In this document: in pieces, positions 1-13,003 of the stretch
Position numbering within the stretch: position 1 is the first letter of the stretch
Layout: the number at the start of each line of letters is the position of its first letter
Source of the DNA: a virus
Virus record (IMG/VR): IMGVR_UViG_3300043775_002552
Coordinates: 1 to 64,000 of that record
Length of the DNA stretch: 64,000 nucleotides
Direction: 5' to 3' (one strand)
Program-made: the position numbers and the translations under genes
The notes under the pieces: generated by a model
The model's database searches: none
Told to the model about the DNA's origin: nothing
The model's input: the letters and a program-made list of their open reading frames with translations, nothing else

Positions 1-163
1 CAGGTCTAAATGAACGTATCGGATATGTAGTTAGCCTTGAAACATCTTCAAGAGTATCTGCTGATGCTTCATTGTCTACATACATCGGAAGTGTAGACAC
101 AGGTCTAAATGAACGTATCGGATATGAAGTTAGCCTTGAAACATCTTCAAGAGTATCTGCTGA
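1..163 (+). repeat. 99-bp-period near-identical tandem duplication in fibre gene
   Basis: Positions 1-64 and 100-163 are identical except for one base (T at 28, A at 127, giving Val versus Glu). The period of 99 bp equals 33 codons, so the reading frame is kept. The high identity suggests a recent duplication or ongoing repeat-number variation. The array may extend left of the window. Confidence 0.85.
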
Positions 164-1361
164 CTTGTCATTGACAAACGCTTTAGATTCTGAATCATCT
201 ATGAGAGTTGAAGGAGACCAATCTCTACAAAACCAAATTGACTTCATTACTTCAAACGTTGATCCAGCTGCTTTAGATTCATTAACTGAAATCGTTAGTG
301 CATTCCAAACTGCCGATGGAGACATCAACAACGCTATCACTACATTGGCTGACGCAGCAGCGGCTTCATTGTCTGCTGAGGTTGTACGTGCTGAAAGTGC
401 TGAAGCATCTTTAGCTTCTGATTTGTCATCTGAAGCATCTGCAAGAATTGCAGACGTTGATGCTGAAGAATCACGTGCTATTGAAGCTGAAGGTTCAATA
501 GTGGATAGAGTTTCTGCAGACCTTAAAGGTGAAATTAATGCTAGACATAGTGCAGATTATTCATTAGAACAATTAATTTCTTCTGAAGTATCTCGTGCTG
601 AAGAAGCTGAAGCTTCATTGGCTACAGAATTGTCTTACGAAGTTTCTTACTTGATATCTAACACAGACTTGACAGCAATCGATTCATTCGCTGAGGTATC
701 TGATGCTGTTGTTGCTGGTAACGAATCATTGTCAACTGAAATATCTTCACAAGTTGAGTCACTTACATCTGTTGACACTTCATTGGAAGCTCAATTGTCT
801 TCTGACATTGATAGTTTAGCTGATGTTGATAACGCAACAATTAGCCTTGATACAGCAACAAACACTATCAAGTTGAAACAAGAGATCGCTGCTCCTGATT
901 CAGGAATGTATACATTCAACAGTAATGTTGAAGTTAGTGATACATTAACTGTTGGTGGTGTTGACGTGATGGCTGAGATTTCTTCTGAAATTTCTGCAAG
1001 AATCGCTGGTGATGAGTCATTGGAAGTTGCATTGTCAACTGAAGTATCTTACTTGTTAGCTAACACAGACCTTACAGCAATCGATTCATTCGCTGAAGTA
1101 TCTAATGAGCTTTCAGTTCAAACTGAAAACTTTGAAACTATTTACTACAGGAAAGCTTCTTTCAGTGGTGATATTGATGGAATAAATTCATCATATACGT
1201 TGTCTGAGGCTGTTAGATTTAGATCTGAGAATGTTTACTTGAATGGTCTATTGCAAGAAGAAAATGTAGATTACACTATTACTGGACCTAATGGTGACAT
1301 AGTTACATTTACTTCTGCTCCTGAAACAGGTGACAAAGTAGTGATCTACGGAGTATATTAA
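1..1361 (+). CDS. Tail fibre-like coiled-coil repeat protein, 5' truncated by window edge
   Basis: The reading frame is open from the first full codon at position 3 and continues without a stop to TAA at 1359-1361, so the gene starts left of the window; the TTG at 72 is only an internal codon. The protein is built of short Ala/Ser/Glu-rich heptad-like units (LSSEASARIADVDAEESRA and similar), which predict a long trimeric coiled coil as in phage fibres. Interspersed are two copies of a NTDLTAIDSFAEVS module and one DPAALDSLTEIV module. The C-terminus (about the last 70 residues) is a compact domain of the pattern ENVYLNGLLQ...DYTI...FTSAPETGDKVVIYGVY. The same modules and C-terminal domain recur in the gene at 9186-11129, so the two are paralogues. 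Receptor-binding fibre or whisker is inferred from architecture; the exact role is unknown. Confidence 0.7.
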   Translation, partial: GLNERIGYVVSLETSSRVSADASLSTYIGSVDTGLNERIGYEVSLETSSRVSADLSLTNALDSESSMRVEGDQSLQNQIDFITSNVDPAALDSLTEIVSAFQTADGDINNAITTLADAAAASLSAEVVRAESAEASLASDLSSEASARIADVDAEESRAIEAEGSIVDRVSADLKGEINARHSADYSLEQLISSEVSRAEEAEASLATELSYEVSYLISNTDLTAIDSFAEVSDAVVAGNESLSTEISSQVESLTSVDTSLEAQLSSDIDSLADVDNATISLDTATNTIKLKQEIAAPDSGMYTFNSNVEVSDTLTVGGVDVMAEISSEISARIAGDESLEVALSTEVSYLLANTDLTAIDSFAEVSNELSVQTENFETIYYRKASFSGDIDGINSSYTLSEAVRFRSENVYLNGLLQEENVDYTITGPNGDIVTFTSAPETGDKVVIYGVY

Positions 1362-1378
1362 TTCCATAGATTAAACAC

Positions 1379-1419
1379 AAGATAAAGGGAGGATGAAATA
1401 CTCCTCCCAATATCTAAAA
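1379..1419 (+). repeat. 41-nt stem-loop element, copy 1
   Basis: The element contains GGGAGGA (1387-1393) and TCCTCCC (1402-1408), with an outer AGATA/TATCT pair separated by an AA/AA internal loop. It lies just downstream of the fibre stop. An identical 41-nt copy follows the next gene (5924-5964). There is no T-run after the stem, so it may be an RNA-processing or stability element, or the stem of an unusual terminator. Confidence 0.7.
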
Positions 1420-1426
1420 TAAAATT

Positions 1427-1457
1427 ACATCAAGGGGGACGCTCCTTGATGTTTTTT
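1427..1457 (+). terminator. Rho-independent terminator after fibre gene
   Basis: ACATCAAGG (1427-1435) pairs with CCTTGATGT (1444-1452) and is followed by a six-T run (1452-1457). It separates the fibre gene from the LRR gene. Confidence 0.8.
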
Positions 1458-1501: not shown

Positions 1502-4500
1502 ATGGCAACATTTATAACATCCAAAGCAGTTGGAGAAACAATGATCATCAATGTTCAAACATCAACAACATATTGGAAATATAACCACAACGGAACAGAT
1601 TCAAGTGTATTCTCTGATGGAAATCAAACAATCACAGTAGCAAACGCAAATGGTGAATTTACACTTATTCCATGTTTAGCAGATGGAACTCCAAGTGGAG
1701 ATATAACTTCTTTAGGTTTATCTGGCGATAAAGAATCATCAAACCAAATCACATCATTTGATGGAACAGGTTTAACGAGTTTAACTGGTTTACATTTAAT
1801 GAACAGCCAATTAACATCATTTGATGGTACAGGTTTAACAAGTTTAACTTATTTAAATTTACGAAATAACCAATTAACTTCATTTGATGGTACAGGTTTA
1901 ACAAGTTTACATACTTTAGGTTTAGGTAATAACCAACTAACTTCATTTGACGGAACAGATTTAACATCATTACAACAGTTATCATTAGCCAACAACCTTT
2001 TAACATCACTTGATGTTTCTCCAATGTCTTTGTTGAAAAACCTACATTTGGCGGATCCTTATGGTTTACAAGGTAACCCAATGACAGCGGCAGCCAATGA
2101 CACTATCATGTCCCAATTTGTCACAAATGGATTAACAAACGGTACTTTTTCAACAGACAATGGTAGAACATCTGATGGAACAGCAGACTATAATACATTG
2201 ATTGCTGAAGGTTGGAACTTAGTTGGACTTGAATTGGTTGAAGAAACGACCACAACAACAACTGAAGCTCCGACAACAACTACAACAACAACTGTAGCAC
2301 CATCAAACCCAACATTTATAACGTCCAAAGCAGTTGGACAATCCTTACCAGGGACCTATGCTGTAACCACTTCAGGATATTGGAAAGCCTACCATAATGG
2401 GACATACTCAAGTATTCACCCTAGTGGACAAAAAAGAAATCTTCCAATCACTAACGCTAACGGGGAATTTACACTTGTAGCTTGTGATGTTAATGGGGAT
2501 ATAACAGGAAATATTACAGCAATTGCTTCAAGACTAAACCAAATTATTTCATTTGACGGAACTGGTTTAACTTCATTAACTTCTTTAGATTTAATGAATA
2601 ACCAATTAACATCATTTGATGGGGCAGGTTTAACAAGTTTAAATATTTTAAAATTAAATGGTAACCCACTTACATCATTCATTGGTGGAGATATGGGATT
2701 AATTACTCAATTGAATTTCCCAAGTTGGGGAATTACAACCCTAACTTCATTTGATGGAACAGGTTTAACAAGTTTAACTACTTTAAGTTTAGGAAATAAC
2801 CAATTAACTTCATTTGACGGAACTGATTTATCTAGTTTAACTACTTTAGAATTAACTAATAACCAATTAACCTCATTTGATCCAACAGGTTTAGATGTTC
2901 TTCAATATTTGTATGTTAATGGTAACCTATTAACCCCAACAATCAACAATTCACTACTAGCAAAACTAGCAGCAAACGAATTAGCAAATACATGGGGGTA
3001 TGGTGAATTTTACACAACAGGAGGAAGAACATCTGCTGGTACAACAGACTATGATTATTTGATAGCAAATGGATGGTTCTTGGTTGGTCTTGAATTGGTT
3101 GAAGAAACGACCACAACAACAACAACAACTGCAGCACCATCAAACCCAACATTTATTACATCTTATAATATATTCGGAGAACCTATATTTCAAATCCAAA
3201 CCTCAACAGGATATTGGAAATTTACAGAAAATGGAACACCTGGAACAATTGGCGGAAACGCATCTGGGGGACCTACACCACCAATGGCAGGTGTATTCAT
3301 TGCAAATGGAACAACTACTCAATTTATTGAACTTCAAATTGCTAATTCTGAAATTGAATTATTTTCATGTGATGAATTTGGTAACACATCAGGAAATATT
3401 CAAACATTAACTTTATCAAGTTGCAATATCACTTCATTTTCTGGAACTGGTTTAACAAGTTTAACTGGTTTGTATTTAGGTGATAACCAATTAACTTCAT
3501 TTGATGGAACAGGTTTAACAAGTTTAACTGAGTTAAATTTAGGTAATAACCAATTAACATCATTTGATGGAACTGATTTAACAAGTTTAACTTTTTTAAA
3601 TTTAAATGATAACCAATTAACATCATTTGATGGAACTGGTTTAACAAGTTTAACTGAATTATATTTACAAAATAACCAATTAACTTCATTTGATGGGACA
3701 GGACTATCTGGTTTAACTGAGTTGTATTTAGGGAGTAACCAATTAACATCATTTGACGGAACTGGTTTATCTGGTTTAACTTATTTGTATTTAGATTCCA
3801 ATCAATTAACTTCATTTGATGGGACAGGATTATCTAATTTAAGTGCATTAGTTTTAAATGACAACCCTCTAACCGCTTTTGATGGAACAGGATTATCTAG
3901 CTTAACTAATTTACAACTTATAGGTGGTAAGGACGGAGTATCTGTTTTAACCTCTGTTACTAATCTACCAACTAGTTTAACTACTTTAGAATTGTCTTCT
4001 AACCAACTAAGTACGTTTGATGGATCAGATTTAATAAATTTAACTAGTTTGTATTTAGGAGGCAACCAATTAACATCATTTGACGGAACTGATTTAACAA
4101 GTTTAACTATGTTAAATTTAGGTTATAACCAATTAACTTCATTAAGTGGATTTATTTTTCCAACAAGTTTAACTCAATTGAATTTATATAATAACCAATT
4201 AACTTCATTTGATGGTACAGGTTTAACAAGTTTAAATTATTTATATTTACAAAACAACCAAATTACTTCATTTGATGGAACAGGTTTAACAAGTTTAACC
4301 CAATTAATATTAGTAAACAACCTTTTAACATCAATTGATGTTTCTCCAATGGTTGCTTTAACTAGTCTATTTTTAGCTGATGTATACGGACTCAATGGTA
4401 ACCCAATGACAGCAACTGCTAACAATACTATTTTAGCGGCATTAGTTGCTAAGGGTGTTTCTGGTGGTAACTTTGCAACGTCTGGTGGTAGAACATCCGC

Positions 4501-5920
4501 TGGAACAGCAAACTATGATACATTGAATGCTGATGGATGGAAATTATATGGTCTTGATCTAACAACACCACCACCATCAGGAAATGGTAAATTAAGAATC
4601 AAAGGTGTTAATAGTGGTGGAGGAACGACAACCACAACAACTGTACCAACGTTTAATTTAACATTTGAAAACGGATTATCTGATCAATTGGTTGTATTAA
4701 GTTATTTCACATTAGATAATGGTGGTGGTCATCATTTTAAACCTAGAAGAGGTCCTGGTGGTCATTTTGGACCATCAATCACCGAATACGGATCAATGGT
4801 AACAGACGAAAATGGACAAGTTGTATTTAACGGTTTACCAAATGATGGATCTAACTGGAAAATAGATGTTTATAACACATCACTTCAAGACGGAACGGTA
4901 GTTTATACTACTGTGTTAGCATTAGAACCTTATGGACCTCAATTACATGAGGATACAACACTCACTAGAAATTTCTATAATGTTGATTTCTTAAATCAAG
5001 ATGATAGTGGTATCCTAAGTGGTAAAGATGTTGATATTTATTATATTCCAAAATCATTATTAACTATGGATGTCGATATATTCCCAATTCTAATGTTTAG
5101 TGGAACTACAGACGTTAATGGTACAATTAATACGTCTTTAAGTGATGGTTCTTATATTATCAGAACTTATGAAGATAATGGTGACCTATCTTGGGGTCAA
5201 CGTTTTTATGTTGAAGGTGGTACCGTTTCAATTTATAGACCATTATCTACAGATGTTGAAATTGTTGTTAACAACTTAGCAACAACGATTTGGAATAATA
5301 TGGTTCCAACAAATAACTCACCTGTAGAAGGTATAGATATTTATTATTATGATAATAGTTTTGAAGTTTATTCTTTTGACCCATCACAACCAATTGGAAA
5401 TAATAGTTTCCAATTTGGAAATAATAATTCCCAAGTCATCCCACCTTTAACACTTCTAGGTCAAACTGACTCAAATGGACAATTATCAACAAACGGAACA
5501 CCTGTATCAATTGAATCGGGTTATATCGGTGTTGTTTGGGGATCAACTGATTCAGAAGGTAGACTATATGGTACCGGTAGAACAGAATCATTAATTAATG
5601 ATTTAGGTGTTAATGGTAACGGGGTTAAAACAATTACACTAGATACCGATATTAACATTCGATGGGCCGAATGGCGTCCAGTAATCAACTTAAGTGGTAA
5701 AAGTGTGATATTGTCAAGATTTAATGGAAGTGAATGGGTACCTTTTGACTCATATACATCCATCGCTGATAACACCAATACTTCCTTTGGTTATTTAACT
5801 GGTGGTGTTGAGTATAAACTTGAAGTTTATAACACACAAACAACTGGTGATATAGGTTACAGTGAAACTTGGACTCCGACTTGGGGTGAAAGTAAAACAA
5901 CCAATGTTACTTTAAGTTAA
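1502..5920 (+). CDS. Giant leucine-rich-repeat adhesin-like protein with Thr-rich linkers
   Basis: This 1472-aa protein has three similar modules. Each starts with a short FITS...YWK...G domain and continues into tandem 21-residue leucine-rich repeats of the type LTSFDGTGLTSLTELNLGNNQ. I count roughly 5, 6 and 15 units in modules 1, 2 and 3. The modules are joined by Thr-rich linkers near residues 247-267 and 534-545 (TTTTTTEAP, TTTTTTTVAP); a third Thr/Gly linker near 1040 leads to a C-terminal part of beta-rich, Gly/Asn/Asp-rich repeats (about 1045-1472) resembling Ig-like or CNA-B/carboxypeptidase-regulatory folds. LRRs are binding scaffolds. Position between two fibre paralogues suggests a surface-exposed receptor-binding or decoration protein, which is inference. 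The ATG at 1502 follows an A-rich leader with no Shine-Dalgarno. No signal peptide or membrane anchor is visible, so secretion by the host is not indicated. Confidence 0.75.
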   Translation: MATFITSKAVGETMIINVQTSTTYWKYNHNGTDSSVFSDGNQTITVANANGEFTLIPCLADGTPSGDITSLGLSGDKESSNQITSFDGTGLTSLTGLHLMNSQLTSFDGTGLTSLTYLNLRNNQLTSFDGTGLTSLHTLGLGNNQLTSFDGTDLTSLQQLSLANNLLTSLDVSPMSLLKNLHLADPYGLQGNPMTAAANDTIMSQFVTNGLTNGTFSTDNGRTSDGTADYNTLIAEGWNLVGLELVEETTTTTTEAPTTTTTTTVAPSNPTFITSKAVGQSLPGTYAVTTSGYWKAYHNGTYSSIHPSGQKRNLPITNANGEFTLVACDVNGDITGNITAIASRLNQIISFDGTGLTSLTSLDLMNNQLTSFDGAGLTSLNILKLNGNPLTSFIGGDMGLITQLNFPSWGITTLTSFDGTGLTSLTTLSLGNNQLTSFDGTDLSSLTTLELTNNQLTSFDPTGLDVLQYLYVNGNLLTPTINNSLLAKLAANELANTWGYGEFYTTGGRTSAGTTDYDYLIANGWFLVGLELVEETTTTTTTTAAPSNPTFITSYNIFGEPIFQIQTSTGYWKFTENGTPGTIGGNASGGPTPPMAGVFIANGTTTQFIELQIANSEIELFSCDEFGNTSGNIQTLTLSSCNITSFSGTGLTSLTGLYLGDNQLTSFDGTGLTSLTELNLGNNQLTSFDGTDLTSLTFLNLNDNQLTSFDGTGLTSLTELYLQNNQLTSFDGTGLSGLTELYLGSNQLTSFDGTGLSGLTYLYLDSNQLTSFDGTGLSNLSALVLNDNPLTAFDGTGLSSLTNLQLIGGKDGVSVLTSVTNLPTSLTTLELSSNQLSTFDGSDLINLTSLYLGGNQLTSFDGTDLTSLTMLNLGYNQLTSLSGFIFPTSLTQLNLYNNQLTSFDGTGLTSLNYLYLQNNQITSFDGTGLTSLTQLILVNNLLTSIDVSPMVALTSLFLADVYGLNGNPMTATANNTILAALVAKGVSGGNFATSGGRTSAGTANYDTLNADGWKLYGLDLTTPPPSGNGKLRIKGVNSGGGTTTTTTVPTFNLTFENGLSDQLVVLSYFTLDNGGGHHFKPRRGPGGHFGPSITEYGSMVTDENGQVVFNGLPNDGSNWKIDVYNTSLQDGTVVYTTVLALEPYGPQLHEDTTLTRNFYNVDFLNQDDSGILSGKDVDIYYIPKSLLTMDVDIFPILMFSGTTDVNGTINTSLSDGSYIIRTYEDNGDLSWGQRFYVEGGTVSIYRPLSTDVEIVVNNLATTIWNNMVPTNNSPVEGIDIYYYDNSFEVYSFDPSQPIGNNSFQFGNNNSQVIPPLTLLGQTDSNGQLSTNGTPVSIESGYIGVVWGSTDSEGRLYGTGRTESLINDLGVNGNGVKTITLDTDINIRWAEWRPVINLSGKSVILSRFNGSEWVPFDSYTSIADNTNTSFGYLTGGVEYKLEVYNTQTTGDIGYSETWTPTWGESKTTNVTLS
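1747..4390 (+). repeat. 63-bp LRR-coding repeat arrays
   Basis: Degenerate 63-bp units (21 codons) occur in three blocks (about 1750-2040, 2540-2930 and 3425-4350), with a recurring core of AACCAATTAACTTCATTTGA. Many units are nearly identical at the DNA level, so unequal recombination between them is likely. Confidence 0.85.
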
Positions 5921-5923
5921 TTA

Positions 5924-5964
5924 AAGATAAAGGGAGGATGAAATACTCCTCCCAATATCTAAAA
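5924..5964 (+). repeat. 41-nt stem-loop element, copy 2
   Basis: Perfect copy of the element at 1379-1419, again directly after the stop codon of a large surface-protein gene and 10 nt before the next ATG. See the finding on this repeat. Confidence 0.7.
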
Positions 5965-5974
5965 CAAAAAACTG

Positions 5975-6589
5975 ATGGAAATTAAAGTCTTAAATCTTAA
6001 AACAGAAAAAAGAAGAAGAGAGTATATGGAGTCCCAATTATCAGGGACTCCACACTCCTTCTTTTATGCTTTATCTCCAAATGATATAGATGAAAAATTA
6101 TTTGAAAATAAACCTCATCTATTATCAAAAGAAGCGGTAGCAACATTTGAATCACATAGAAAAATAATTGGATCTTGTGGTGATGAACCTATGTTAGTAT
6201 TAGAAGATGATTCTACCCCATTTAAACCTGATTTTATGGAAAAAATAGAAGAACTTTTAAAAACAGAACATAAATGGGACATTATGATACTTGGATACTT
6301 CCCCGATTATAGAAAACTTGAAAGAAAAGACATATGTGATAAATTTGATAAACTATATAAGTTTATTGGAATGCATGCTTATATCATAAACCCATTAAGT
6401 GTTGATAAAATATTATCTCAACTCGGAGAACCAAATGTACACGTTGATTACAGAATCTCCGAACTAATTGAAGAAGATAAAATCATTGGTATATTCTCTA
6501 AAATAAACATTTTTAGACAAAACAACTGGGACTTTAAAACCCAAATACCTAAAGCAAGAGACATTATAAAGAATGAGGAAAATAAATAA
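5975..6589 (+). CDS. Glycosyltransferase family 25-type (LPS-type) glycosyltransferase
   Basis: 204 aa. The N-terminus VLNLKTEKRRREYM matches the GT25 start, where a strand is followed by basic residues. It is followed by SHRKIIGSCGDEPMLVLEDD, the family pattern of S/H-x-x-hhh and an acidic E-D-D (about residues 70-90), and by GMHAYIINPLSVDKIL further on. GT25 enzymes transfer galactose or related sugars in LPS or to collagen-like proteins. The gene follows the LRR gene and overlaps the next gene by 17 nt, so it is probably co-transcribed with the sulfotransferases. It likely modifies a phage or host surface glycan; the substrate is not deducible. Confidence 0.8.
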   Translation: MEIKVLNLKTEKRRREYMESQLSGTPHSFFYALSPNDIDEKLFENKPHLLSKEAVATFESHRKIIGSCGDEPMLVLEDDSTPFKPDFMEKIEELLKTEHKWDIMILGYFPDYRKLERKDICDKFDKLYKFIGMHAYIINPLSVDKILSQLGEPNVHVDYRISELIEEDKIIGIFSKINIFRQNNWDFKTQIPKARDIIKNEENK

Positions 6590-7139
6590 AATATTTCAAA
6601 TAGGGTTTAACAAGTGTGGAACCGTATCCCTTTACCATTTTTTTGAAGATAACGGGTTAAAACCAATTCATTGGGATATGGGTATGTTAGCAACCACAAT
6701 TAAATATAACCATAATAACAATCTACCTCTTTTAAAAGGATATGAAAAATATGATGTTTTTACAGACATGGAAAATGTCCATCAAAACCTATATATCCAC
6801 CTTACACACTATAAAGAACTAGACAAACAATATCCAAACTCCAAATTTATTTTAAATCTAAGACCTATAGACAATTGGATCAAATCCAGAGTAAACCACC
6901 CAAATTATCTTAATGTATTTAAACAAATGACAGGATTTGATGAGGAAGGTGTTATAAACTTATGGAAAAAACAATGGTACGACCATATAGAATCGGTTAC
7001 AGACCATTTTAAAGATAGAGCAAATGATTTATTGGTCTTTGACATTGAAACAGAACAACATAAATTAGTTGAGTTTATTTCTCAATATATTGAATTAAAA
7101 TCAACAGACTACGGTCATCATAACAAAACTGAAAAATAA
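6573..7139 (+). CDS. Sulfotransferase family protein
   Basis: 188 aa. Residues 9-20 (QIGFNKCGTVSL) match the 5'-phosphosulfate-binding loop of PAPS-dependent sulfotransferases (G-x-x-K-C/S-G-T-x-S/T-L). RPIDNWIKSR near residue 96 matches the 3'-phosphate-binding RxxxxWxxS-type motif. It is shorter than many family members but both cofactor motifs are present. It overlaps the GT25 gene by 17 nt and the next sulfotransferase by 1 nt (TAATG), indicating translational coupling. Expected reaction: transfer of sulfate from PAPS to a carbohydrate hydroxyl, target unknown. Confidence 0.75.
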   Translation: MRKINKIFQIGFNKCGTVSLYHFFEDNGLKPIHWDMGMLATTIKYNHNNNLPLLKGYEKYDVFTDMENVHQNLYIHLTHYKELDKQYPNSKFILNLRPIDNWIKSRVNHPNYLNVFKQMTGFDEEGVINLWKKQWYDHIESVTDHFKDRANDLLVFDIETEQHKLVEFISQYIELKSTDYGHHNKTEK

Positions 7140-7792
7140 TGTTAGTATCTCATAAACACAAATTTATTTATATTAAAAGTATAAAGACTGCCGGAACAAG
7201 TACTGAAATATTTCTAGAACCTTACTGTGTGACCAATGTATTGGAGAGTCATGGAAGAGAAATGATTCAAACCAATGAAGGTATAATCGGAACTAGAATG
7301 AACCAACATCTAGCCGAAATTTCAGAATTCTATAACCATATGCCCCCATATAAAATAAAAAATAGCATAGGTGAAGAAACATTTAACTCTTATACTAAAA
7401 TAATCAACATCAGAAACCCATTTGATATGATGGTTAGTCATTACTATTTCAAACCAACATTTGATTTATATAGTAATAGTGAAATGTCTTTTGAAGATTA
7501 TTTGTTAAAAACAAATGTCGTTGAGGATCTATCCAAAAAATATAGAGACTTAATGTATATAGAAGATGAGTTTATAGTTGATGAAATTGTAAGATTTGAA
7601 AATTTAGAGGAAGATATTTTTAAACTATTAGACAAATTAGAGTTACCTTCCCCTAAAAGGGAATTGGGTGAGTATAAGAAAAATAAAAGAAGACCTGATA
7701 AAGATTGGAAGAAAATGTATTCAAACGAAACAAAAGAATTAGTTGAAAAACATTTTAAATTTTATATGGATCTATTTAACTATTCATTTTAA
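7139..7792 (+). CDS. Sulfotransferase (Sulfotransfer_2-like)
   Basis: 217 aa. HKHKFIYIKSIKTAGTSTEI (residues 5-24) carries the K-T-A-G-T-S phosphosulfate loop typical of carbohydrate sulfotransferases. INIRNPFDMMVSHYY near residue 90 is the 3'-phosphate motif (RNPxxRxxS-type). It starts at the TAATG overlap with the preceding sulfotransferase and ends in an overlapping TAATG with the DUF2061 gene. Two adjacent, clearly divergent sulfotransferases suggest two different acceptor positions rather than a simple duplication; that reading is inference. Confidence 0.8.
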   Translation: MLVSHKHKFIYIKSIKTAGTSTEIFLEPYCVTNVLESHGREMIQTNEGIIGTRMNQHLAEISEFYNHMPPYKIKNSIGEETFNSYTKIINIRNPFDMMVSHYYFKPTFDLYSNSEMSFEDYLLKTNVVEDLSKKYRDLMYIEDEFIVDEIVRFENLEEDIFKLLDKLELPSPKRELGEYKKNKRRPDKDWKKMYSNETKELVEKHFKFYMDLFNYSF

Positions 7793-7998
7793 TGAAAAAT
7801 AAAAAAGAATATACCTTTTTGAAATATACCTTAAAAACAATAAGTTATAGAGTAATGGGTACATTAATCACCTTCTTAACTGCAATGTCATTAAATATCC
7901 CATTTAAAATATCGGCAGTGTTAAGTTTAGGTGAATTGGTTATAAAACCTATATTTTATTTTTTACATGAGATGTTTTGGGATAAAAAATCATTTTGA
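7792..7998 (+). CDS. DUF2061 small membrane protein
   Basis: 68 aa. The pattern KYTLKTISYRVMGTLITF...GELVIKPIFYFLHEMFW matches DUF2061 (start with K-x-x-S/T-x-R, two hydrophobic segments, G-E-x-x-x-K, then Y/F-x-H-E-x-x-W). Two transmembrane helices are likely (about residues 18-36 and 38-58). DUF2061 genes are often found near sulfate-activation (cys) genes in bacteria as far as I recall, which would fit the two sulfotransferases just upstream. The gene starts at a 1-nt overlap with the upstream stop. Its last 43 nt overlap the 3' end of the convergent glycosyltransferase gene. Confidence 0.75.
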   Translation: MKNKKEYTFLKYTLKTISYRVMGTLITFLTAMSLNIPFKISAVLSLGELVIKPIFYFLHEMFWDKKSF

Positions 7999-9185: not shown

Positions 9186-11129
9186 ATGGCAGAAACTAAA
9201 ATCGTCTTAAATAGACAGTCCGATTTAATATTGGACAACGCACAAATCACAGCACCTGTTGGTATCGTAGTTGCAGATATTGATGGTTTACAATCCGTTG
9301 TAACCTCAATTGATACAAACGTATCTGAACTATTATCAACTGAATTATCTAATCGTGTTGCTGGTGATGACTCTCTAGCTGCTGGACTTTCTACAGAAGT
9401 AGCTAACCGTGAATCAGATGTTAATGCTGAGGAATCAAGAGCTATCGTAGCAGAAACTTCATTACAAAACAACATTGAAGCTGAAGCTTCTTTAAGAGTT
9501 GTTGGTGATGAAAGTTTAGAAAACGCAATGATGGCGGCAGATAGTTCATTAGCTACTGACTTATCTTCTGAAACTGCTAGAGCAGAATCAGCTGAGGCTT
9601 CATTGAACACTAAAGTTGATTTCGTAATCTCTAACACAGATCCTGCGGCTATTGACTCATTAACTGAGATCGTTGGTGCTTTCCAATCAGCTGATGGTGA
9701 CCTAAATGGTGCTATTACATCTTTGGCTACTGCGGCAACATTGGCGGTTAATAACGAAGCATCTATCCGTTTGGCGGCTGATGACGTATTAACTTCTGAC
9801 TTGTCAACTGAGGTTGCCAATCGTGAAGCTGCGGTATCTTTGGAGGAAGCTGCTCGTATCTCAGGTGATATGTCAGTTAATGCTGATTTGTCTACAGAAG
9901 TAGCAAACAGAGAAGCAGCAGTATCTACTGAAGCATCTGCTCGTGTTGCTGGTGACTCTTCATTGGAAACTAAAATTACAACAGACTTATCATTAGCTAA
10001 TTCATCTATTGATTCTGCTTTAAGTACTGAGACATCTAACAGAATTGCTGATGTTGATGCTGAGGAATCAAGAGCTATGTCTGTGGAGGCAGTATTGACT
10101 TCTGATTTATCTTCTGAGGTTGTTAACAGAACATCTGCAGTCTCTACTGAAGCGTCTTTACGTGGTGTTGCAATTGACAACGAAGCGTCAATTCGTTTGG
10201 TCGCTGATGATTCAATCGCTGCAGGTCTTTCTTCTGAACTTGTGGCTCGTGAATCTGCAGTATCTGCTGAAGCATCTTCAAGAGTATTAGGTGACTCATC
10301 TTTAGCTTCAGGACTTTCTTCTGAAGTGTCTAGAGCGGAATCTGCTGAGGGTTCATTGGCAACAACCATTGCTAATGTAATCTCTAACGCTGACCCAGCT
10401 GCTCTTGATTCACTTGTTGAAATTGTTAATGCATTCCAAAGTGCTGACGGTGACTTAAATGGTGCTATCACTTCATTGGCAACTGATTTATCTTCTGATA
10501 TTTCTACTGAAGTTGATGCTAGAATGTCAGCAGATTTTTCGTTAGAATCTAATTTAACAAATTATATTTCTAATGAATATTATGGTCCTATGCAAACATT
10601 GTACAGAGAGATATCTGACCGTGTATATATGGATCAGTCATTGGCTACGGATTTATCTACTGAAATTTCAAGAGCACAAGAGGCTGAAACATCATTAGAA
10701 ACAGCGTTGTCAACTGAAGTATCTTACTTAATTGCTAACACAGACCTTACGGCAATTGATTCATTTGCTGAAGTATCTGCGACAATAGAACACACATACC
10801 ACCAAGTATTACCTTTATGGTATGATGAGGCAAACCCATTACCTATAAGTCTAAATTACGGAGTTAATTTCAACCAAATAGATGGGTCTAATCCGGTATT
10901 TGTTACACAAACACCAATTAAAGTTGGTTCAGAAAACATCTATTTAAATGGTATGCTTTTGACTAGAGGTAAGGATTATAATACCGCATATATGCCTCAC
11001 CAGATGTCTATTATTGACAATCAGTTAAATGGTGTTAATACTTTTGCGTTTAGGTTTTTGTTCACCTCCCCACAACCAGGTGATACAATCACAATTTATG
11101 GTGTTTATGATAATAGAATGTTGCCTTAA
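9186..11129 (+). CDS. Tail fibre-like coiled-coil repeat protein, complete
   Basis: 647 aa. The N-terminus (AETKIVLNRQSDLILDNAQI) differs from the repeats and probably attaches to the virion. Residues about 40-500 are coiled-coil units rich in S-T-E-V-A-N-R and A-E-E-S-R-A. Embedded are two DPAA(I/L)DSL(T/V)EIV modules (near residues 155 and 400) and one NTDLTAIDSFAEVS module (near 523). The C-terminal domain (SENIYLNGMLL...YGVY) is homologous to that of the fibre at the left edge. The paired fibres bracket the glycan-modifying cassette. The function as fibre/whisker is inferred from repeat architecture. The large antisense frame over it is a mirror of the repeats. Confidence 0.7.
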   Translation: MAETKIVLNRQSDLILDNAQITAPVGIVVADIDGLQSVVTSIDTNVSELLSTELSNRVAGDDSLAAGLSTEVANRESDVNAEESRAIVAETSLQNNIEAEASLRVVGDESLENAMMAADSSLATDLSSETARAESAEASLNTKVDFVISNTDPAAIDSLTEIVGAFQSADGDLNGAITSLATAATLAVNNEASIRLAADDVLTSDLSTEVANREAAVSLEEAARISGDMSVNADLSTEVANREAAVSTEASARVAGDSSLETKITTDLSLANSSIDSALSTETSNRIADVDAEESRAMSVEAVLTSDLSSEVVNRTSAVSTEASLRGVAIDNEASIRLVADDSIAAGLSSELVARESAVSAEASSRVLGDSSLASGLSSEVSRAESAEGSLATTIANVISNADPAALDSLVEIVNAFQSADGDLNGAITSLATDLSSDISTEVDARMSADFSLESNLTNYISNEYYGPMQTLYREISDRVYMDQSLATDLSTEISRAQEAETSLETALSTEVSYLIANTDLTAIDSFAEVSATIEHTYHQVLPLWYDEANPLPISLNYGVNFNQIDGSNPVFVTQTPIKVGSENIYLNGMLLTRGKDYNTAYMPHQMSIIDNQLNGVNTFAFRFLFTSPQPGDTITIYGVYDNRMLP

Positions 11130-11202: not shown

Positions 11203-12435
11203 TTATATTTTATTATAAAGGTTTGTCTTTGGATTGTATTTTAACCCCTTATTTCCACCATTAAATAAGTTCTCAATCAATTTATCATAAGTACGAACAA
11301 TATCCATATTATCAGCGTGATAACGTTGTAGAACCTTATCATTTCTTTCATCATATGATTCAATATTCTTGTCGTGTTCTTTTAGGATATAATCAAGTTG
11401 TTTTGCCCCAGCAATGGTATCAGACCCTTCATAGTAATATCCAAGATCTTTACACATTGGTGCGTTATGTAAAACAGGATAACCTAAGAATACCGCATCC
11501 AAATATAAATAATTTAATGGGTTCAAAATCTGATGACAAATCAAGACATCCAAATGTTGGGTTAACATATATGCGGTTTGATATCTACTTTCAGCAGATA
11601 TTTTACCGTCCTTATATAAGTCAAATGTGGCAATCATTGCCAAAAATTCCTTATGTGATTTAACTTTTTCAGAGTTTGTAATACGTAGTTTATCAATATG
11701 TTCCTTACCAATTTCACCACGATAACATTCTTCAGCAATCATAGTTGGAATCAAACTAAACTTAACGATATTCAAGTTAGGTTCCATAATACCCAAGATT
11801 TTTTTATCTTTTCCAATCTCGTATTGCCAAGACTTTTTATAAGTCCCACGTTTAAATCCTTTTTCAATATCGGTTACACTTTCAAGTAAAAACTTATGGT
11901 GCCAAATGAAAGGAACGATAAGGGCGTTTGTACGATATAAAGTATGGTAATACCCACGATTAACCTCATCTTGTTGGGGTATGTACCATATCTCATCATA
12001 CTGTTCATCAAACTGATATGACTTAGTGGGATTCTCACCAAAAAGAATATTTTCCATTGCGATTACATAGTTATTACCACATTTATAAGCAATAATCTTT
12101 TTATGTTCACCTGATTTTTTAAATGAATCAATTTGGTGATTATGAATTTGAGCACCCATAACAACTAACATATCCATTTCCAAATACTTATCTTCAAAAT
12201 AACTAACATCAATATCATTTAGATAAGATGGTTTAGTTGAGAAATCGGCCTTTAATGTATTCAATAAATGAATTTCATAATTCTTTTCGGAATTTTTTAA
12301 CATATGAATCATCATTAAAACGTTTTGTTTGATTCCATTTGTCCATATTGATTCTTTGTTATCCTTTAAACCTAAAGTGATTCCGATTTTAATTTTTTCG
12401 GTGTTAAACCCTTTTTTTGTTGTTTTTTTAGCCAT
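11203..12435 (-). CDS. DUF2827 glycosyltransferase-like protein
   Basis: 410 aa from the ATG at 12435 (MAKKTTKKGFN); an upstream TTG would add seven residues but the ATG gives the usual small overlap (8 nt) with the upstream J-domain gene. KIKIGITLGLKDNKESIWTN close to the N-terminus, followed by GIKQNV, is the characteristic start of DUF2827. Further on, HQILNPLNYLYLDAVFLGYP and the acidic H-N-A-P segment resemble the donor-binding half of GT-B glycosyltransferases. DUF2827 proteins usually sit in surface-polysaccharide loci. With the genes at 5975-8975 this adds a probable third glycosyltransferase to the region; substrate unknown. Confidence 0.7.
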   Translation of the reverse strand: MAKKTTKKGFNTEKIKIGITLGLKDNKESIWTNGIKQNVLMMIHMLKNSEKNYEIHLLNTLKADFSTKPSYLNDIDVSYFEDKYLEMDMLVVMGAQIHNHQIDSFKKSGEHKKIIAYKCGNNYVIAMENILFGENPTKSYQFDEQYDEIWYIPQQDEVNRGYYHTLYRTNALIVPFIWHHKFLLESVTDIEKGFKRGTYKKSWQYEIGKDKKILGIMEPNLNIVKFSLIPTMIAEECYRGEIGKEHIDKLRITNSEKVKSHKEFLAMIATFDLYKDGKISAESRYQTAYMLTQHLDVLICHQILNPLNYLYLDAVFLGYPVLHNAPMCKDLGYYYEGSDTIAGAKQLDYILKEHDKNIESYDERNDKVLQRYHADNMDIVRTYDKLIENLFNGGNKGLKYNPKTNLYNKI

Positions 12436-13003
12436 GTTTTTTAACAAATAATTCAATTAATTTATTTTTTTCTTCTTCAGTTTTTGCCATGTAGTATAAC
12501 CATATAAAAGAAGCCTCAATACTTTTTAATTCATTTTTTTTCATTTCAATTAAAGCAATTAAAGTTCCCTTATCTTCAAAATCAATTTCAAAATCAATTG
12601 ATAATTGATCACATATTATAAATAGTTCCATAAGATTATATTCATCCGCAGCAATTGTAGCATTCATATAAAGATTTATTAACTCTTCAGAATTTGTCTT
12701 ATCAGGGTGTGTTTTTTTAACTATTTCCCTATATAATTTTTTTACTTTATCTTTAACTGATTTATCTACCGAGTCAGGTTCAATTTTTGGTTTTTTTGGT
12801 AGATTAACTTCTTCTTCCTTTTTTTCCGTTTTTGGTTCAGGATCGTTGTTAATACCAAGTTCGGATCTTAATTTTTGTGTTTTTTCTAAAAATTCAGGTC
12901 TATTCTCTGAGATAACTTCTTTTTTAAATTCATCATCTAATAGTAAAAAATTATACTCCTGTATTAACTTTTTAATTTCTAATCTTTTAAGTTTATCCTC
13001 CAT
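12428..13003 (-). CDS. J-domain (DnaJ-like) protein
   Basis: 191 aa from the ATG at 13003; the longer start at 13006 is a TTG and would put the start inside the 4-nt spacer of the promoter motif. The C-terminal half contains KVKKLYREIVKKTHPDKT, with the HPD tripeptide at residues 99-101 preceded by the basic helix II, as in J domains that stimulate DnaK/Hsp70. The N-terminal half is Lys/Glu-rich and probably disordered. Here the J domain is C-terminal with no zinc-finger or substrate domain. It may recruit host DnaK to virion assembly or to phage proteins. The N-terminus contains KKLIQE, also seen in the phage SOD. Confidence 0.75.
   Translation of the reverse strand: MEDKLKRLEIKKLIQEYNFLLLDDEFKKEVISENRPEFLEKTQKLRSELGINNDPEPKTEKKEEEVNLPKKPKIEPDSVDKSVKDKVKKLYREIVKKTHPDKTNSEELINLYMNATIAADEYNLMELFIICDQLSIDFEIDFEDKGTLIALIEMKKNELKSIEASFIWLYYMAKTEEEKNKLIELFVKKHG

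Follow-up and report, generated by a model that had tools for sequence, protein, structure and literature searches.

Variable lymphocyte receptors (VLRs) recognise their targets through the concave sheet of a leucine-rich-repeat (LRR) fold, and their variable residues are the concave ones. By gene position, the closest described phage protein is gp38 of T2, PP01 and S16, a tail-fibre-tip adhesin whose gene lies right behind the distal fibre gene, which carries hypervariable recognition elements, determines receptor choice, and folds as a poly-glycine-II sandwich with a beta-helix (PMC12892980). LRR-like proteins have also been described in phages: vibriophage P. lipares encodes one in its tail module that varies more between its strains than any other protein and has a weak LRR assignment (10% HHpred probability) (PMC10945359), and ORF 287 of jumbo vibriophage pir03 is a BspA/DUF285 LRR-like surface protein (PMC7765460).

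We analysed a window of 64,000 nucleotides from a 68,603-base IMG/VR virus record that carries genes of the T4 myovirus type, namely sheath, tube, baseplate wedge, UvsX, and DnaB, and in which a large LRR gene lies directly behind a fibre gene (Table 1). We consider it likely that its product serves a large T4-like freshwater Bacteroidota myophage as a receptor-binding adhesin, gp38-like and presumably riding on the fibre. The likeness to gp38 rests on analogous gene position rather than on gp37 homology of the fibre gene, and extends to hypervariable recognition elements, with control of receptor choice shown for gp38 and inferred for the LRR protein. Unlike gp38, the LRR protein is a modular solenoid of variable length with an unrelated fold; no gp38-type family matches it, and a glycine-rich poly-glycine-II domain is absent. 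With VLRs and internalins, both among the fold matches of its first module, it shares the LRR fold and, putatively, concave-sheet recognition, but it comes from a phage gene, its N-cap is of beta type, its C-cap is of another kind, and it lacks both signal peptide and anchor. The InlJ model scores 117 bits against a cut-off of 1700, and the internalin signal peptide and cell-wall anchor are missing. Slot LRRs also differ from VLRs in that they appear to be diversified by unit duplication and selection, without VLR-type assembly. The P. lipares protein is comparable in being LRR-like and encoded among phage tail genes, but modules, a swapped slot and an analysis of concave sites are missing there. 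DUF285 genes fill the same slot in relatives, but they are of another repeat type, Pfam finds no DUF285 repeats in the window's LRR protein, and their PKD-like cap, considered as a homologue of the LRR cap, is unrelated to it by profile comparison with hhalign.

Table 1. Features of the LRR locus, in window coordinates.
Feature	Position	Strand	Basis
Fibre-like coiled gene 1, 5' end lost at contig end; terminates ...GDKVVIYGVY	3..1361	+	homology to relatives' fibre genes
Intergenic hairpin copy 1, GGGAGGA-TGAAATAC-TCCTCCC within AGATA/TATCT	1379..1424	+	repeat D6; fold z-score
Intrinsic-terminator-like hairpin, fibre/LRR gene interval	1427..1452	+	T run after it
Three-module LRR protein, 1472 aa	1502..5920	+	ORF list, Pfam, unit regex, module comparison
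Module 1 N-terminal beta cap domain (FITS..YWK), residues 1-72	1502..1717	+	module comparison, AF2
Module 1 LRR solenoid	1703..2071	+	AF2 pLDDT 95; Foldseek/VIA matches are LRR proteins
Module 1 C-cap (helix-strand-helix-strand, ..GRTS..DY..L...GW)	2072..2239	+	module comparison, AF2
Thr-rich linker 1, TTTTTTEAPTTTTTTTVAPSN; T6-EAP-T7-VAPSNP, residues 249-268	2240..2305	+	
Module 2: cap, LRRs, C-cap; residues 269-533	2306..3100	+	
Thr-rich linker 2; T-run-AAPSNP, residues about 536-547	3101..3142	+	
Module 3: cap, 13 regular and irregular LRRs, C-cap; residues 548-1021	3143..4564	+	
KLRIKG motif, residues 1030-1035	4589..4606	+	
Third poly-Thr tract, T6, residues 1042-1047	4625..4642	+	
C-terminal region, about 425-430 aa	4643..5917	+	no Pfam, SpaA E=0.22, AF2 pLDDT 37
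Intergenic hairpin copy 2, 98% identity to copy 1	5924..5969	+	
GT25 glycosyltransferase	5975..6589	+	PF01755 E=5e-12
Sulfotransferase (Sulfotransfer_4)	6573..7139	+	PF17784 E=6e-12
Sulfotransferase (Sulfotransfer_2)	7139..7792	+	PF03567 E=2e-5
DUF2061 small membrane protein	7792..7998	+	PF09834 E=2e-10
Second fibre-like gene (MAETKIVLNRQSDLILDNAQITAPV..), empty slot behind	9186..11129	+	
DUF2827 protein, conserved far border of slot	11203..12456	-	PF10933 E=2e-98

Architecture of the three-module LRR protein

The LRR open reading frame is intact and starts with ATG, and its product matches Pfam LRR_4 (E=3e-75, 246.9 bits against a cut-off of 27) and LRR_8 (E=3e-45) far beyond chance, which makes it a member of the LRR family. 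A unit regex finds 22 regular 21-residue units (4, 5, and 13 in modules 1, 2, and 3) and a count by eye that includes irregular beta-turns gives about 29, so the figure of about 26 in the preliminary description is a fair one. The three modules it reported are confirmed, each opening with a FITS…YWK beta-type cap (at residues 3, 271, and 550), as are the Thr-rich linkers between them. Each module also closes with a conserved C-cap, GGRTSAGT.DY..L...GW.L.GL.L, which that description lacks. It likewise missed the region past residue 1021, comprising KLRIKG and the C-terminal region.

AlphaFold2 confidently predicts module 1 to be an LRR solenoid with strands regular every 21 residues, and the model matches many LRR structures in VIA at Z 15-17, showing the capped parallel-beta solenoid of LRR proteins. 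On this module 1 model, each module is predicted to be a self-contained LRR solenoid with a beta cap and a C-cap at its ends. Neither cap nor C-cap finds a match among 50,697 phage records. LRR matches in Listeria phages, faecal phages, and Tenacibaculum phage PTm1, whose LRR gene is a 98-aa ORF close to neck genes, were rejected as relatives because the similarity is confined to the LRR, as was an identity with SlrP/SspH2 suggested by family models, where the matches are LRR-only. The C-terminal region, probably several beta-sandwich domains, is unassigned: it has no Pfam match at E 0.01 (SpaA gives E=0.22) and no relatives found in IMG/VR, and its single-sequence AlphaFold2 model is unusable. 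By inspection no signal peptide is evident, the protein starting MATFITSKAVGETM... with no hydrophobic leader, and LPXTG is absent.

A variable slot behind the fibre gene

The comparison set comprised related aquatic myophage contigs with predicted Bacteroidota hosts and 21 distinct slots. Across contigs the slot lies between the same long fibre gene and DUF2827, and the genes upstream include the major head protein, neck Ad2, and a tail-fibre family. The window's first fibre gene is homologous to the full-length fibre genes 5' of the slot in relatives, and a protein of phage C48C1 related to these is annotated 'tail fiber protein'. LRR genes with 1-6 modules and 2-31 units occupy 12 of the 21 slots, so the suggestion that LRRs are rare is unsupported for this lineage. 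Six slots hold other genes, for DUF285/BspA proteins, CBM5/12, or unassigned products, and three are empty (L132 and L133 have empty slots). Slot occupants also include a gene with a LamG/ConA-lectin domain. DUF285 genes in the slot were established by test for L101 and L129 and by eye for L011, L095, and L096. Between L011 and L012, identity is 95-97% at the outer edges of the slot and 84-92% in the distal fibre gene, and falls to 53-79% with large gaps inside it. These comparisons show the position of the slot and the swapping of its contents between relatives.

Two features around the gene had invited more specific readings. The enzymes modifying the Thr-rich linkers had been placed in the next genes; these do encode a GT25 glycosyltransferase and two sulfotransferases, but homologues of the GT25-ST-ST cassette also lie behind LRR genes without Thr linkers (L007-L009 and L012), and linker modification is therefore unsupported. 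In L012 the DUF2061 homologue comes after an APS kinase. The repeated hairpin flanking the LRR gene (fold z-score -8.5 for 1379-1470) was considered as a slot-specific recombination site and rejected: its 22-nt core also lies behind stop codons in unrelated phages, and it is therefore a general intergenic hairpin. An Rfam scan of the window gave no matches.

Slot context also bears on whether the protein could instead be an intracellular effector, its LRRs binding and neutralising host defence or regulatory proteins and its concave diversity reflecting an arms race. The LRR is a general protein-binding scaffold, secreted LRR effectors are among the sequence matches, and the apparent lack of a signal peptide would suit such a role, though it counts for the adhesin reading as well. 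We nevertheless regard it as unlikely, because the slot keeps its place behind the fibre gene and in relatives encodes a carbohydrate-binding module, BspA-type surface repeats, or a lectin-like protein, and because up to six flexibly linked modules suit multivalent surface binding. Thr-Pro linkers are, moreover, also present in the tail-sheath proteins of relatives, and therefore look like ordinary virion-protein spacers.

Concave-face diversification and unit number

Over 216 units, variability is 3.3-3.5 bits at positions 6, 8, and 10 and 2.75 at position 11, against at most 2.1 elsewhere, and these four hypervariable positions lie on the concave face. There, pN/pS is 1.9 (bootstrap over genes 1.37-2.66) versus 0.3 elsewhere, values computed among paralogous units, where codon bias and gene conversion may inflate them; the window's LRR gene taken alone gives a ratio of only about 1.1. 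Codon positions 1 and 2 outchange position 3 at the four concave positions only. Judged from these substitution patterns, the concave residues bear a signature of diversifying selection.

Such a signature is more readily expected of binding to a receptor that coevolves than to a polymer that stays constant, which makes it improbable that the protein plays a decorative part on the virion or a surface, binding environmental polymers (mucus, exopolysaccharide, or particles) instead of the infection receptor and raising host encounters with host range unaffected. CBM5/12 and LamG modules in the same slot would agree with decoration, as would the empty slots of L132 and L133, which show that some phages can do without the function. 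Mutagenesis of the concave codons as a diversity-generating retroelement target is very improbable: these codons are mostly AAT, TAT, GGT, GAT, AGT, and ACT, as expected from adenine-directed mutagenesis of AAT, but CAA/GAA/GAG are also common there, codons ending in T may simply reflect an AT-rich genome, and no RVT_1 reverse transcriptase turned up in 16 lineage records, contigs of 281 and 296 kb included, although the window's own record is a 68.6-kb fragment.

Unit number is evolutionarily labile, ranging from 2 to 31, and L011 carries three 63-bp units in tandem that are identical to one another, which shows recent unit duplication. The suggestion that specificity changes with unit number thus holds as regards lability, but nothing ties number to specificity. 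Comparing close strains, as had been proposed, revealed no change in number in five near-identical sets (L005/L006, L007-L009, L099/L100/L102, L123/L143, and L124/L142).

Proposed role in host recognition

To our knowledge, no receptors are established for large freshwater Bacteroidota phages. A fibre-adjacent gene, a diversified binding face, and a slot that holds other binding proteins together indicate that the LRR slot protein is probably the part recognising the host cell, in agreement with the receptor-recognition role first suggested for it. We hypothesize that the adhesin would most likely ride on the long tail fibre, as the T2-type tip adhesin gp38 does, and that its concave beta-sheet would grip a cell-surface protein or glycan, four exposed positions per unit having been diversified by selection. 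Affinity and footprint could be tuned by gain or loss of tandem 63-bp units and whole cap-LRR modules, and further by concave-face residue changes and wholesale slot-gene swap, with the Thr-rich stretches serving as flexible spacers between modules.

KLR[VI]KG, with 25 matches versus 0.2 in shuffles, nearly all in slot proteins, is common to nearly all slot occupants and sits at the N-terminus, the C-terminus, or a domain junction. It may join domains and is a candidate dock to the fibre. In the window's protein the motif is internal, and a simple terminal dock is therefore a poor description of that protein. Several observations count against the adhesin reading: the first fibre gene is truncated in the window, the second has an empty slot behind it, close strains show no unit-number variation, KLRIKG is internal, the 50,697 phage records yielded no isolate, and pN/pS may be inflated and is near 1 for the window's gene by itself.

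More tentatively, and with somewhat less confidence than doubt, the locus can be seen as a universal adhesin slot, in which any binding domain bearing the KLR[VI]KG docking motif could be mounted on the tail fibre and the LRR versions would be a phage counterpart of VLRs, gaining new specificities through concave diversification and unit duplication. The single-module, 222-aa protein of L008 is an easily testable form, and the slot LRR genes would amount to a collection of LRR binders evolved in nature, together with a candidate docking motif. The locus would also indicate where to look for receptor recognition in metagenomic genomes of this phage group. If the adhesin reading is true, LRR recognition would extend beyond immune receptors and host proteins, and phages would recognise their hosts with the same scaffold, diversified on the same face.

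The LRR protein and its variable unit positions

The three-module LRR protein with caps and Thr-rich linkers recognized in the preliminary description is borne out: the ORF is intact, LRR models match its product with a best E=3e-75, and three modules are seen. Each module opens with a 'TFITS...YWK' cap, continues with successive 21-residue LRR units (4, 5, and 13 regular ones, counted by regular expression) and ends in a conserved C-cap, the last a feature that description had not named. Thr-rich tracts connect the modules, and module 3 is followed by a KLRIKG motif, another T6 tract and a ~430-aa C-terminal part for which family searches returned no match. Structure prediction, proposed earlier as a check, gave an LRR solenoid for module 1; this AlphaFold2 model, built with 22 related modules, has a pLDDT of 95 and comprises a β cap, a regular solenoid with one strand per 21 residues, and an α/β C-cap. 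Its matches in Foldseek and VIA-align are LRR proteins, including Leptospira LRR proteins, internalins, SDS22, and VLRs.

The unit consensus is L-x-x-L-x-X6-L-X8-L-X10-X11-N-x-L-T-S-F-D-G-T-G, in which, given the established geometry of LRRs, X6, X8, and X10 (and X11) face solvent on the concave sheet. Across 216 units from 15 proteins, entropy is 3.3–3.5 bits at positions 6, 8, and 10 and 2.75 at position 11, with all others at or below 2.1. Among close unit pairs, pN/pS is 1.9 at these four codons (1.37–2.66, bootstrap over genes) vs 0.3 at the other 17, but this compares paralogous units, is no formal phylogenetic test, and may be skewed by codon bias or gene conversion. Changes at codon positions 1/2/3 amount to 0.64/0.50/0.37 in the four codons and 0.06/0.06/0.12 elsewhere, and within the window's LRR gene alone pN/pS is ~1.1 at the four against 0.19. 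Such variability is what diversifying selection on a concave binding surface would be expected to give. A diversity-generating retroelement is an alternative source of concave variation, but a search of 16 records turned up no reverse transcriptase.

Slot LRR proteins range from 1 to 6 modules and from 2 to 31 regular units. The related contig L011 has three identical 63-bp units in a row and a two-unit block that recurs at 97–100%, so units duplicate in tandem. The preliminary description had suggested comparing repeat number among close isolates or in long-read metagenomes; near-identical contig pairs show no difference, and unit lability is therefore evolutionary-scale, not strain-scale, in the data at hand.

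Features of the window and of related loci (L-numbers)
Feature	Position	Strand	Remark
LRR gene	1502-5920	+	uninterrupted ORF, 1472 aa
LRR modules 1 / 2 / 3	residues 1-246 / 269-533 / 548-1021
KLRIKG motif	residues 1030-1035		C-terminal to module 3
Hairpin GGGAGGA-TGAAATAC-TCCTCCC	1387-1408; 5932-5953	+	invariant loop
DUF2061 gene	7792-7998
Second fibre-like gene	9186-11129	+	complete; slot 3' of gene empty
DUF2827 gene	11203-12456	-	adjoins slot
APS (adenylylsulfate) kinase	L012:14389-14847	+	3' of GT25-sulfotransferase-sulfotransferase cassette
SET-domain gene	L097:14654-15031; L124 reverse complement 5604-5978		Pfam SET match on L097 copy
Last gene of the window's record	L004:6582-8603		runs off record

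A variable slot beside the long fibre gene

In relatives, the slot is bordered by a long coiled fibre gene on one side and a DUF2827 gene on the opposite strand on the other. The fibre protein starts M..TKIVLNRQSDLILDNA.ITAPV and mostly ends GDKV..YG.Y; its PHROG matches are weak (phrog_13589, phrog_21602), phage C48C1 has a distant relative that carries the annotation 'tail fiber protein', and the upstream genes in L100 include those for the major head protein, for neck Ad2, and for a member of a tail-fibre family. The window's fibre gene preceding the LRR gene is a truncated copy, additional to the complete one. DUF2827 lies beside the slot in nearly all relatives (56–97% identity); no solved-structure relative was found, and its product is perhaps a glycosyltransferase.

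Among 21 distinct slots, each read wholly or in part, 12 hold LRR-cap genes (window, L005, L008, L010, L011, L012, L013, L097, L100, L123, L124, L147), six only other genes (L095, L096, L101, L108, L121, L129), and three are empty (L132, L133, L135). Non-LRR occupants include DUF285/BspA-type and CBM5/12 proteins, and a LamG/ConA-lectin-domain protein adjoins the LRR genes of L097; occupants of L108 and L121 and a small L010 gene had no family match. The identified occupants are binding modules, except the sulfation genes and a SET-domain gene (lysine methyltransferase type, 124–125 aa), which lies immediately 3' of the fibre gene in two phages. L011 and L012 share 95–97% DNA identity at the fibre-gene start and in DUF2827 and beyond, 84–92% in the remainder of the fibre gene, and only 53–79%, with large gaps, within the slot, where L011 carries LRR and DUF285 genes and L012 two LRR genes and sulfation genes.

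Among 1116 distinct proteins encoded by the loci, the motif [KR][LI]R[VIL][KR]G has 25 hits, nearly always in slot proteins, vs 0.2 in shuffles. Most LRR proteins carry it C-terminally and the rest N-terminally (the two L147 LRR genes, at either end); in the window, L005, L097, and L124 it lies where a further C-terminal domain is joined on. We infer two possible readings: it may dock the protein to the fibre, or it may mark a recombination/fusion joint. In many relatives the GGGAGGA/TCCTCCC hairpin, which has no Rfam match, separates slot genes, and in unrelated phages (L165, L167, L168, L176, L181) it sits just 3' of stop codons; a short ATG ORF (MKYSS..) lies inside it.

Sulfation genes and the Thr-rich linkers

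The window encodes a GT25 protein, two sulfotransferases, and DUF2061. In L012, an APS kinase (PF01583), the maker of the sulfate donor PAPS, comes after a homologous GT25-sulfotransferase-sulfotransferase cassette, so that L012 has a phage-encoded sulfation module including its own donor-making enzyme; no such kinase lies beside the window cassette. Sulfation by these phages is therefore likely. The proposal that the Thr linkers are the enzymes' substrates is not supported: of 23 records, just 3 carry the first sulfotransferase, and the LRR proteins of two of these (L008, L012) lack a Thr linker; moreover, similar Thr-Pro tracts (e.g., NPTTTTTTSPTTTTTTNPCVTPTP) are found in tail-sheath proteins of the relatives L084, L086, L087, L089, and L091. 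The targets may be virion or host glycans.

The virus, its host and the proposed adhesin

The source record, a 68.6-kb IMG/VR fragment, encodes sheath, tube, baseplate-wedge, UvsX, DnaB-type helicase, and ribonucleotide reductase genes, and thus comes from a T4-type myovirus. Its last gene encodes a large protein whose sequence, by eye, looks similar to SprB-type repeats, which are typical of Bacteroidota adhesins. The sheath has at least ~600 relatives in IMG/VR. Sequence comparisons point to a Bacteroidota host: the single match among genome contigs is a phage-like contig within a Flavobacteriaceae MAG, which shares the gene order as fibre-LRR-LRR-DUF2827, and bS21 occurs in 3 of 17 related records, as it does in the freshwater Bacteroidetes bS21 phages (PMC9723584).

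Earlier papers mention LRR-like proteins from phage tail modules (PMC10945359) and, from a jumbo vibriophage, DUF285 (PMC7765460). Neither a modular LRR adhesin slot nor diversification of the concave face in phages turned up in the literature searched, which lacked most subscription journals; priority is not established. T2-type gp38 is positioned at the gp37 tip and carries hypervariable recognition elements (PMC12892980). The window's LRR protein has a different fold and so falls outside the gp38 family, although the proposed function is alike. The simplest account is that the LRR slot protein is a candidate tail-fibre-associated receptor-binding adhesin, which would act like T2-type gp38.
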